64,000 nt of DNA from Methylopila sp. M107 (lineage in GTDB: Bacteria; Pseudomonadota; Alphaproteobacteria; Rhizobiales; Methylopilaceae): assembly GCF_000384475.1 (NCBI RefSeq), contig NZ_ARWB01000001.1, forward strand, positions 3,872,501 through 3,936,500, read 5' to 3'. Every line of letters starts with the position of its first letter. Position 1 is the first letter of the stretch. Below are positions 12,024 to 44,660 of this stretch, piece after piece. A program made the position numbers and the translations under genes. The notes beneath the pieces are model-generated. The model searched no databases and was not told the origin of the DNA. It saw only the letters and a program-made list of their open reading frames with translations.

Positions 12024-15000
12024 ATGCCCTCCGACGCCCCCGCGACCGCTCGCGACTATTCAGAAACCCTGTTCCTGCCGCGCACGGATTTTCCGATGCG
12101 CGCCGGCCTGCCGCAGCGCGAGCCGGAATTCCTCGCCCGCTGGAACGAAATCAAGCTCTACGAGAAGCTCCGCGAAGCCGCGAAGGGCCGCAAGAAATAC
12201 GTCTTGCATGACGGCCCGCCTTACGCCAACGGCCACCTTCACATCGGCCACGCGCTCAACAAGGTCCTGAAGGACGTCGTGGTGCGCACCCGCCAGATGG
12301 CGGGCTTCGACTCGAACTACGTGCCCGGCTGGGACTGCCACGGCCTGCCGATCGAGTGGAAAGTGGAAGAGGGCTACCGCGCCAAGGGCCTCAACAAGGA
12401 CGAGGTCCCGGTCATCGAGTTCCGGAAGGAATGCCGGGACTACGCGGCGCACTGGATCGGCGTGCAGTCGGAAGAATTCCAGCGGCTCGGCGTGACCGGC
12501 GACTGGGCCGACCCGTACACGACCATGAAGTTTTCGGCCGAAGCGCAGATCGCCCGCGAGATCATGGATTTCGCACGCAGCGGCCAGCTCTATCGCGGGT
12601 CGAAGCCGGTGATGTGGAGCGTGGTCGAGCGCACGGCGCTGGCGGAAGCCGAGATCGAATACGCCGAGTTCTTGAGCGACACGGTGTTCGTGGCTTTTCC
12701 GCTTCTTCCCCCTCTCCCCTTGAGGGAGAGGGTCGGGGTGAGGGGTGACGGCGGCGCGGAGTCCGGAGAGGGCGCAGCCGCCACCCCCGCCCCCGACCCC
12801 TCCCCTCAAGGGGGAGGGGAGTTGCGCGGCGCCTCCGTCGTCATCTGGACCACCACGCCGTGGACCCTGCCGGGCAACCGCGCGATCGCCTATTCGCCGA
12901 AGATCGCCTACGGACTCTATGAAGTCACCGAAGCGCCCGACGATAATTGGGCCAAGGTCGGCCAGCGTTTCCTGCTCGCCGACGCGCTTGCGGCGGGCGT
13001 GTTCAAGGCCGCGAAGGTCACGGGCTTCGAGAAGGTCCGCGCCGTCGGCGCCGAGGAACTTGCGGGCCTGAGCGCGAACCACCCCCTCGCCCATCTCGGC
13101 TACGATTTCCAGATTCCGCTCCTCGCCGGCGACCACGTCACAGACGACGCCGGCACGGGCTTCGTGCACACGGCGCCGGGCCATGGCCGCGAGGACTTCG
13201 AGCTCTGGTCGGACTCGAAGAACGAACTGATCGCGCGCGGGATCAGCCCAAAAATCCCCTACACGGTCGACGCCGAGGGCTTCCTCACCAAGGACGCGCC
13301 GGGCTTCACCGGCCGCTCCGTCATCACCGAGAAGGGCGACAAGGGCGACGCCAACCAAGCGGTGATCGAGGCGCTGGTCGAGGTCGGTCGACTGGTCGCG
13401 CGCGGAAAGCTGCGACACCAATATCCGCATTCATGGCGTTCCAAGAAGCCGGTGATCTTCCGCAACACGCCGCAGTGGTTCATCCACATGGACCACGACA
13501 TCGCCGGACCCGCCGACACGCTGCGGAGCCGCGCGCTCGCGGCGATCGAGGCCACCGCGTTCTATCCGCCGCAGGGAAAAAACCGGCTTCGCGGCATGAT
13601 CGAGAGCCGGCCCGACTGGGTGGTGTCGCGCCAGCGCGCCTGGGGCGTGCCGATCTGCGTGTTCGTGAACAAGAAGACCGGCGAGCTGCTCGCCGACGAC
13701 GCCGTCGACAACCGCATCGCGGGCGCCTTCGAGACGGAAGGCGCCGACGCCTGGTTCGCCGACAGCGGCGCGCGCTTCCTCGGCAACGATTATTCGCTCG
13801 ACGAGTACGAGAAGGTCGCCGACATCCTCGACGTCTGGTTTGATTCAGGTTCGACCCACGCCTATGTGCTCGATCGCCGGCCGGACCTCGCGCCGAAGCG
13901 CAAGGTCGACGGCGGCGAGGACGAGGTTCTCTACCTCGAAGGCTCCGACCAGCATCGCGGCTGGTTCCACTCCTCGCTGCTCGAAAGCTGCGGCACGCGC
14001 GGCCGCGCGCCCTACGACGCGCTGCTGACCCACGGTTTCGTGCTCGACGAGCAGGGGCGCAAGATGTCGAAGTCGCTCGGCAACGTCGTCGCGCCGCAGG
14101 ACGTCATCAAGCAGTCGGGCGCCGACATTCTGCGGCTTTGGGTTGTGACCTCGGACTATGAGGACGACCTCAGGATCGGTCAGGAGATCCTGAAGACCGC
14201 GACCGACGCCTACCGAAAGCTCCGCAACACGCTGCGCTGGATGCTGGGGGCGCTCGCGCATTACGACGGCGAGCCAGTCGCCTTCGACGAGACGCCGGAG
14301 CTCGAGCGCTACATCCTGCACCGGCTGGCGGAGGTCGACGCGGAGATCGGCGCGGCCTACGAGGCGTTCGACTTCAAGCGCGGCTTCGCGGCGCTGTTCA
14401 CCTTCCTGACCAACGACCTCTCGGCGTTCTATTTCGACGTCCGCAAGGACGCGCTCTATTGCGATCCGGCGTCTTCGGTCACGCGGCGGGCGTGCCTCAC
14501 CGTCGTCGACCGCGTGTTCCGTGCGCTGGTGACGCGGCTCGCGCCTTTGCTCCCATTCACGGCGGAAGAGACCTGGCTGTCGCGCTTCCCCTCGGACGAC
14601 GGCTCGGTCCATCTCGAACTGTTCGCAGGCTCCGCCGACGACTGGCGCGACGAAGCGCTGGCCGCGAAGTGGGAGAAGATCCGCCGCGTCCGGCGCGTGG
14701 TGACGGGCGCGATCGAGATCGAGCGGGCGGCCAAGCGCATCGGCTCGTCGCTCGAGGCCGCGCCGGTCGTGCATATCGCCGACGAAGCCTTGCGCTCGGC
14801 GCTCGAAGGCGTCGACCTCGCAGAAGTCGCGATCACCAGCGCGATCTCGGTCGAGGCCGGGGAGGGGCCCGCGGAAGCGTTCCGGTTGCCCGAGGTTGCG
14901 GGCGTGTCCGTCGAGGTGAAGCGCGCCGAGGGCAAGAAATGCGCGCGCTCGTGGAAGGTTTCGCCCGAGGTGGGGTCGGACCCGGAGTTCCCGGAAATCA

Positions 15001-15059
15001 CTCCGCGGGACGCGAAGGCGATGCGCGAATGGCTGGCCCTGCGCGGGGAGGCGGCGTGA
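12024..15059 (+). CDS. ileS: Isoleucine--tRNA ligase carrying an in-frame palindromic repeat insertion
   Basis: A 1011-residue class Ia aminoacyl-tRNA synthetase that charges tRNA-Ile. HIGH is at residues 73-76, the KMSKS loop at about 680-684, and the editing-domain signature [13 protein letters not shown] follows residue 270. I chose ATG 12024 ([17 protein letters not shown]); the frame open to 11982 adds 14 unconserved residues. Between SDTVFVAFP and [12 protein letters not shown] about 40 residues of Pro/Gly/Arg-rich sequence (about 228-266) are encoded by a GC-rich palindromic element whose relatives lie in intergenic DNA elsewhere in the window. The frame stays open and both catalytic motifs are intact, so the gene is presumably functional. 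Confidence 0.95.
12706..12822. repeat. Palindromic element inside ileS
   Basis: The two arms (about 12708-12744 and 12783-12820) are imperfect inverted copies built on CTCCCCTTGAGGGAGAGGG and CCCTCCCCTCAAGGGGGAGG, around a core of about 40 nt. The arm design matches the intergenic elements at 15078, 43570 and 44399, though the core differs. It sits in frame at the start of the ileS editing domain. Confidence 0.8.
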
Positions 15060-15077: not shown

Positions 15078-15214
15078 TCCCCTCCCCCTTGCGGGGAGGC
15101 GCTAGGGGTGGGGGTGGTTCAGAATTGAGCTCCAAGCGCCGCTCCGCTCGACGCTCGGCCACGAGCACTGTTCTGAACCACCCCCACCCTTACCCTCCCC
15201 GCAAGGGGGAGGGA
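15078..15214. repeat. GC-rich palindromic element between ileS and lspA
   Basis: The left arm CCCTCCCCCTTGCGGGGAGG and its extension pair with the right arm CCCTCCCCGCAAGGGGGAGG. The core of about 55 nt ends in the sequence TTCTGAACCACCCCCACCC that also closes the elements at 43570 and 44399. It fills most of the 244-nt ileS-lspA gap. No open frame here is credible. Confidence 0.85.
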
Positions 15215-43569: not shown

Positions 43570-43705
43570 CCCCCTCCCCCTTGCGGGGAGGGGGTGGGGG
43601 TGGCGCCGGATGGAGCGCCAGCGCTGAAGACGCGCTCGACGCTCGACGCCGAAGTCATGTTTTGAACCACCCCCACCCCTAAACCCTCCCCGCAAGGGGG
43701 AGGGG
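43570..43705. repeat. GC-rich palindromic element
   Basis: The left arm CCCCTCCCCCTTGCGGGGAG and right arm CCCTCCCCGCAAGGGGGAGG enclose a core of about 70 nt ending TTTTGAACCACCCCCACCCC. It is the same family as the elements at 15078 and 44399. It follows the DUF2125 gene and opens the 1.4-kb repeat block. Confidence 0.85.
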
Positions 43706-44269
43706 ACGGCCGGCGTTGCGCCCGATGCCTTCGCTCACCCGGACAGCCTGCATCGTCCTCGCCGCATCTCTGCGCGAGGGTTCAAAACTCAGGGAGGCGG
43801 GGACGCCAGGCGGCCGCATCTTAAAACTTAGAGAACCGGTCGCCCGGCGCCCCACGCACGGCGATTTTTCATCGACCGAAGGAACCGCGCTCCGACGTCG
43901 GGCGACCCGTTGGCCCTTCGGTTTCCCAAAGGGGTCCGGACCAGTCCCGCCGCGTTACGGCCCACTGAAGGGCGGCCCCGTCATAGTGCGGGGCGGGCGG
44001 CCGTCGTTCCTTGGCGTTTTCCGGGCGCCCTTGACCTCATCGGCCAAAAGCTTCCGGCTTCCGCCGCGGAAAGCCTTCGATCGACGTCCCGGGAAGGTCG
44101 AGACCGGTGCTGAACCCGCGCAGGCGCCGCCCTCACATCCCGCGCGAACGGCCGGTCCGGACGCGCCTCCCGGCGGGAGGAGGTGAAGGGAGCGTGCGGG
44201 AGAGAAGGAATAATGTCAAGGACAAAAAACCTATCACCGCATTATCCGAACTTGCCGCGACGCTGCTGT
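43706..44269. other. Non-coding stretch within the repeat block
   Basis: About 560 nt with no gene I can support. Frames are open at 43716-44186 and 43910-44113, but their products are Arg/Pro-rich, lack any family motif and have no good ribosome site. Several short GC-rich inverted repeats suggest structured RNA or decayed repeat material. No promoter or terminator is clear. Confidence 0.5.
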
Positions 44270-44381
44270 CCCCTTCTCCCGCTTAGCTGAGAGAAGGTAA
44301 GGATGAGGGGGCGTCAACACGCTGAGCCCCTTCCCAAAGTCCCCTCACCCTTACCCTCTCCCGCTCCGCGGGCGAGGGGGA
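44270..44381. repeat. Palindromic element, second arm type
   Basis: AGAAGGTAAGGATGAGGGGG in the left half is the imperfect inverted counterpart of CCCCTCACCCTTACCCTCTC in the right half, with a short core. It is related in design to the CCCTCCCC elements but has different arms. No gene overlaps it. Confidence 0.7.

Positions 44382-44398: not shown

Positions 44399-44660
<262 letters not shown>

Follow-up and report, generated by a model that had tools for sequence, protein, structure and literature searches.

Selfish palindromic repeats very probably invade a few tolerant protein loops within the genus Methylopila time and again, displace one another there and are lost once more, and are translated as part of the host protein. 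The element at the centre of this reading lies inside ileS, the gene for isoleucyl-tRNA synthetase (IleRS), in a 64,000-nucleotide stretch of the genome of Methylopila sp. M107 (the whole stretch analysed, hereafter the window; the genome is G000 below). We propose that this element belongs to family A, a non-autonomous repeat resembling MITEs or REPs, and that it inserted where the CP1 editing domain begins, in a loop that tolerates it. With its frame kept and no stop codon, the insert would be translated and form a disordered loop, so that IleRS keeps working. A few sites (ileS, glyS and the N-terminal linker of uvrB) would have been entered, exchanged and emptied repeatedly within the genus, the colonisers being family A and also unrelated palindromes, CGTC-like in ileS and of the CGTC type in uvrB; insertions that break the frame are presumably purged by selection.

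The product of ileS has Pfam matches to tRNA-synt_1 (2e-128) and Anticodon_1, and both class-I signature motifs, HIGH (within NGHLHIGHA) and KMSKS, are unbroken. The gene, its insert and the other family A elements of the window are as follows.

12024..15059, + strand: ileS, isoleucyl-tRNA synthetase, 1011 aa including the insert (from translation)
12706..12822, + strand: in-frame palindromic element inside ileS, arm P ... arm R, 117 nt
12710..12745, + strand: left arm, type P, a terminal mini-hairpin CCCTCTCCCCTTGAGGGAGAGGG and then TCGGGGTGAGGGG, 0 mismatches to the P consensus
12783..12821, - strand: right arm, type R, with a terminal hairpin at 12797-12819, where it has 1 mismatch to the R consensus
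15079..15214: R...R element of family A, directly 3' of ileS
43571..43705: R...R element of family A
44399..44660: R...R element of family A, containing a C/G homopolymer run

The inverted repeat in ileS has arms at 12716-12757 and 12772-12813 that are 81% complementary, and the predicted RNA fold of the element reaches -92.2 kcal/mol against -63.1 +/- 3.9 in 200 shuffles (z -7.5). The frame is open and stop-free throughout. Arms, fold and the dispersed copies described below bear out the initial annotation, which had described a palindromic element in frame in ileS, and the translation agrees with its statement that the frame and both class-I motifs are kept. Its further statement that the arms recur elsewhere in the window holds for the right-arm type, present in three elements, but not for the left-arm pattern, whose two matches in the window (at up to 3 mismatches) are both in ileS. 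We note that the last R element has 29 C and then 27 G at 44502-44557, a run that resembles an artefact of assembly or polishing at a hairpin; N letters are present in further R elements (L127 and L203).

Family A is dispersed through the 4.45-Mb genome of G000. The left-arm (P) pattern CTCCCCTTGAGGGAGAGGG has 64 matches at up to 2 mismatches, related Q arms included, and the right-arm (R) pattern 151 at the same tolerance, while the P pattern read backwards and a reversed R pattern gave none in the same genome. The copies, more than 100 across the genome and mostly about 120-150 bp long, are mosaics of the three arm types P, Q and R; the 87 complete ones in the loci read comprise 52 R...R, 14 P...Q, 14 Q...P, 4 P...R, 2 Q...Q and 1 R...P. 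Over aligned bases the P...R copy in ileS is 87-91% identical to copies elsewhere in G000 (L122, L124 and L126). By eye, the 52 R...R elements start with CCCCTCCCC-type stems; the sequence most often found next to them is TGTY on the left side (29/52) and RACA on the right side (22/52), with both in 10/52, and no target-site duplication was recognised by eye in their flanks. A terminal hairpin module, GAAGTCGGA...TCCGACTTC, substitutes for the normal arm end at L132, L139, L141 and glyS site 1 (L121). Across 87 elements, dispersed copies have 1.78 open frames of six; shuffled sequences have 2.59, and control stretches nearby have 3.47. Nothing therefore suggests adaptation to coding, and the idea of a coding-adapted element was rejected.

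As to what kind of repeat this is, family A is a short element with inverted-repeat ends, as MITEs are, and lacks the arrangement of CGTC-tagged REPs, in which the tag stands beside an 8-9 bp stem with a 4-5 nt loop. A search for PF01797, the REP-associated tyrosine transposase (RAYT), gave no match in the G000 genome, although the same search found matches in 5 of 14 known genomes used as a control. RAYT was accordingly rejected as the mobiliser of family A, which also lacks the resident transposase that marks RAYT-mobilised GTAG REPs. Family A is presumably mobilised in trans by some enzyme. We also considered a repeat of ∼650 bp as an autonomous parent. One copy, apparently non-coding, lies at 43732-44381 in the window; there are 14 sources in G000 (query locus and window included) at 89-97% identity, adjoining family A elements in the copies inspected, and no Rfam family (14 loci) or convincing protein in six frames was found in the repeat. 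Rfam at gathering scores returned one tRNA in the window, one in the 14 loci, and nothing else.

The ileS site was compared among 13 genomes of the genus (G000-G012) as the number of residues between AEAEIEY and VIWTTTPWT. Four carry family A (G000, G002, G009 and G010), three an unrelated palindrome, family B (G001, G007 and G011), and one, G012, an ordinary, non-palindromic insert. The remaining five (G003, G004, G005, G006 and G008) are empty, with 23-25 residues compared with 60 in G000. Relative to four of these empty alleles the net gain in G000 is 111 nt (132 vs 21 nt), and relative to the 27-nt allele of G005 it is 105 nt, corresponding to 35-37 extra residues. In G009 and G010 the contigs break inside the hairpin, and the ends alone were read; the terminal sequence of the G010 contig (C4, L103) is presumably sequencing adapter. 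Draft genomes can thus break at the insert.

Family B inserts start CGTCATCCCGGC and have the stem CGTC-ATCCCGGC...GCCGGGAT (GCCGGGAC in G011) with GACG at the far end. The CGTC tag and the 8-9 bp stem starting AT agree with CGTC REPs, while the loop exceeds the 4-5 nt stated for these in PMC3733652. Families A and B have no arm sequence recognisably in common. Both occupy the same few ileS codons, and the three B inserts share their frame and right boundary. Each of the six complete ileS inserts, those of families A and B as well as the ordinary one of G012, is a multiple of three in length and free of stop codons.

This frame-keeping bears on a reading in which the segment is bypassed by hopping ribosomes or excised from the RNA before it reaches the protein. 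The long message hairpin does resemble bypassed elements known elsewhere; bypass, however, would not need six of six inserts to be in frame and stop-free, and we regard it as extremely improbable. Under the proposed explanation the segment would stay in mature IleRS as a neutral loop.

Beyond the genus, the taxonomic family is represented by 18 genomes in 3 genera, and the five outside the genus have 27-52 ordinary-looking residues at the site. The IleS loop measures 23-70 residues between the flanking motifs in 93 rows drawn from 100 loci, with certain genomes entered twice. Repeat peptides, from a list covering only the repeats met in the present analysis, have no match in the 77 readable loops of 80 orthologues from other genera. 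The hypervariable loop and the non-palindromic insert of G012 would fit ordinary growth of a length-variable loop, with DNA that is palindromic by appearance only. In G000, however, this is refuted by the dozens of dispersed copies that the ileS stretch matches at the DNA level, and the element folds far better than shuffles; as a general account it is scarcely credible. Neither of the situations that would have spoken against insertion in the initial annotation, a segment present in all relatives or the same peptide across orthologues that lack the repeat DNA, is what we see: five of the 13 genomes of the genus are empty, and none of the 77 loops matches the list. The same annotation held that the element moves and is tolerated in protein, and with copies that are dispersed, in frame and variable between species this view gains support; the site changes hands.

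Other coding sequences of G000 carry the arms too. The initial annotation had none of the inserts of glyS and uvrB described below, nor the unrelated palindromes that occupy the ileS site of sister species. We located 114 family A clusters in G000 loci, 109 of them with enough flank for a codon test, using a codon model with 26 ORFs of the genus as its training set. Seven copies are in frame: one in ileS, two in glyS (sites 1 and 2), one in uvrB, one in a hydantoinase gene (L203) and two in an ATP-grasp gene (L145), the last resting on a partial domain match and its second copy known only as an open frame. The remaining clusters were judged by the codon model alone; a flag at L225 was dropped, the ORF there having no Pfam domain support.

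Site 2 of glyS is occupied in seven of the 13 genomes and short in six. Four have type A (G000, G001, G002 and G005) and three another type, class S, beginning ACCTCTCCCCGGCGGGGAGAGGT (G003, G007 and G012); the class was read from the peptide in G000 (also from DNA), G001, G002, G005 and G012, and from DNA in G003 and G007. Both types contain an inner GGGTGAGGGG module and, judging from this common sequence, may be related. We note in addition that an R arm at L121:507-568 ends directly before the start codon of glyS (569) and could supply the gene with its ribosome-binding region.

The N-terminal linker of uvrB is occupied in six of the ten genomes in which it could be compared, those with unreadable motifs (G001, G006 and G011) being excluded. 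G002 and G007 have family A there; G000, G005 and G009 have a CGTC-type repeat together with an A arm, and G012 has the CGTC type alone. G003, G004, G008 and G010 have neither repeat. The DNA of all four CGTC-type repeats was checked and has the features of CGTC REPs, namely the tag, a 9-bp stem starting AT, a 5-nt loop and a CC(A) tail, as in CGTC-ATGCCCGGG-CTTGA-CCCGGGCAT-CC of G009 and G012.

We placed these states on a tree of IleS and GlyS with the insert columns removed (15 tips). The outgroups G013 and G014 were coded empty, even though the ordinary sequence between the motifs of G013 is 52 residues long; three nodes are weak, with supports of 55, 64 and 65. The close trio G002, G007 and G008 is well defined (supports of 98 and 100), and its ileS flanks are 91-98% identical DNA, yet the site holds A in G002 and B in G007 and is empty in G008. 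The minimum numbers of state changes are 6 for ileS, 7 for glyS site 2 and 5 for uvrB, close to the means of 7.2, 6.1 and 5.4 obtained with shuffled labels, so the site states hardly follow the tree. Changes between occupied and empty number at least 5 in ileS alone.

These patterns can be set against a single ancient insertion per site that later diverged, was gene-converted or was lost, the apparent swaps being conversion. Similar R-type ileS inserts in G002 and G009, which belong to different clades, would suit such a history, as would the common frame and right boundary of the three B inserts, and the authors of PMC3767692 incline towards a common origin for the rickettsial palindromic elements RPE-4/6/7. 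Arm-to-arm homologous conversion, however, fails to explain the interchange of A and B, which have no arm in common, and the empty G008 beside its occupied sisters, with the repeated occupied/empty changes, also stands against it. We therefore consider one old insertion unlikely. Some shared ancestry could nonetheless underlie part of the family A distribution in place of separate entry, judging by the inserts of G000 and G002, which are still 85% identical over aligned bases (70% by BLAST over 148 columns). Where repeated entry and replacement by selfish palindromes is the explanation, empty alleles would arise by deletion across the hairpin.

Structure models place the inserts in loops. In the AlphaFold2 model of IleRS (45 sequences, mean pLDDT 88), codons 234-264 (12723..12815, + strand) are the only internal stretch with pLDDT below 50 and sit between strands 211-227 and 271-276. 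The best PDB IleRS chain aligns to residues 11-227 and 270-1000, on either side of the insert, and IleRS structures rank first in a Foldseek search with the model. The GlyS model (AlphaFold2, 32 sequences, mean pLDDT 80) has two long low-confidence stretches, 297-380 and 630-667, which are the two insert sites, and further ones of 3-7 residues at 144-150, 293-295 and 559-562. Low AlphaFold confidence is a sign of disorder, not proof of it, and on these models the inserts are probably disordered loops.

A function for the insert, with the peptide or the mRNA hairpin slowing translation or tuning editing, might be read from its position at the entry to the editing domain and from a predicted hairpin of -92 kcal/mol inside the message. 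Five sister species do without the insert, though, others have unrelated sequence in its place, and the loop is of low confidence and apparently disordered; a functional role seems quite improbable.

The sites may also be chosen by more than tolerance. GlyS has a third loop, 586-600, with a length of 12-118 residues (at least 35 in 14 of 32 proteins), yet its sequence is ordinary and none of the 32 proteins has a listed repeat peptide there; site choice may thus depend on more than tolerance of length. Elsewhere in the order, a GlyS search of 81 genomes gave 72 matches at 1e-80, three of them in this genus. GlyS loci were obtained from 27 other genomes of the order, and 24 were aligned. Among these 24 proteins only those of G032 (long at site 1) and G037 (long at site 2), from other families of the order, exceed 27 residues at the two sites; their inserts are palindromic and have 6 and 3 genome matches, respectively (up to 3 mismatches, query included), with none for controls. 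A target hot spot, in which the palindromes or a mobilising enzyme recognise a feature of the DNA or the transcript, would account for this reuse of the glyS sites, for the arrival of unrelated A and B at the same few ileS codons, and for the 586-600 loop that is free of listed repeats. Survivor bias alone, however, can concentrate insertions in tolerant loops, and comparison of the flanks shows no common target motif, so that targeting remains a tentative suggestion. With similar reservation, one may speculate that the IleRS CP1 entry, the two GlyRS-beta loops and the UvrB linker are true landing pads across Hyphomicrobiales, to which unrelated families are drawn by a shared target feature and where they replace each other among close sisters; palindromes would then continually supply essential enzymes with new disordered loops.

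The kind of element involved is already known from published RPEs and intragenic REPs. In PMC3767692, RPE-7 is described in isoleucyl-tRNA synthetase and PheT of Rickettsia, and RPEs also in excinuclease subunit C; they lie in solvent-exposed areas, and different RPE groups occur in orthologues of one gene. All rickettsial orthologues were occupied in the 18 genes aligned, which left the choice between hot spot and common origin open there (PMC3767692). Rickettsia and Wolbachia palindromic elements are also treated in a review of MITEs (PMC10969869). Like family A, which is dispersed, in frame in conserved genes and has insert-free orthologues, these are palindromes, of 100-150 bp, that lie in frame within genes, ileS among them (PMC3767692, PMC10969869). 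In contrast to the RPEs, the present genus has empty alleles and unrelated families alternating among close sisters. Family A is further set apart from RPEs, by description and not by sequence comparison, in having G+C-rich mosaic arms and in belonging to another order.

The initial annotation went too far in treating in-frame palindromes as essentially a Rickettsia feature, since intragenic REPs, including the alphaproteobacterial CGTC type, have been published (PMC3733652). According to that paper, intragenic CGTC and GTAG REPs occur in known proteins of many species, many of them in replication and repair, with examples in uvrB of R. conorii and in tRNA synthetases of E. litoralis, S. alaskensis and X. 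oryzae, and in recB at about one site in two Xanthomonas (PMC3733652). The uvrB repeats of G000, G005, G009 and G012 fit the CGTC type and ileS family B bears the CGTC tag, whereas in family A neither tag is seen and the arms are paired and of three types. Bacterial MITEs (Coxiella QMITE1/2, ERIC and Correia) are short non-autonomous inverted repeats, sometimes in frame in ORFs (PMC5896051, PMC10969869). Family A differs from them in having no recognised target-site duplication and no parent element in a search for PF01797. BIMEs and the rhizobial RIME-type elements are mosaics of palindromic arms and are mostly intergenic; family A resembles them in its mosaic arms, a likeness by description only.

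Titles and abstracts of the open literature, most subscription journals lying outside it, yielded no report that ileS or glyS of Hyphomicrobiales contains palindromes in frame. What is new is an untagged family, in this order, and unrelated families that alternate with empty alleles at one site. In-frame palindromes are thereby extended to another alphaproteobacterial order, which supplies what the Rickettsia work lacked, namely close species in which a site is empty or filled by unrelated repeats, and the choice between a hot spot and one old diverged insertion becomes testable. The essential enzymes concerned also form natural pairs, with and without insert, in which the consequences of an arbitrary loop of 40 residues can be compared.

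Lastly, we note a pair of loci, L209 and L202, in which a CobN-type protein (by Pfam) and an rRNA-methyltransferase-like protein (by eye) each have an apparent C-terminal tail through read-through into an R element.
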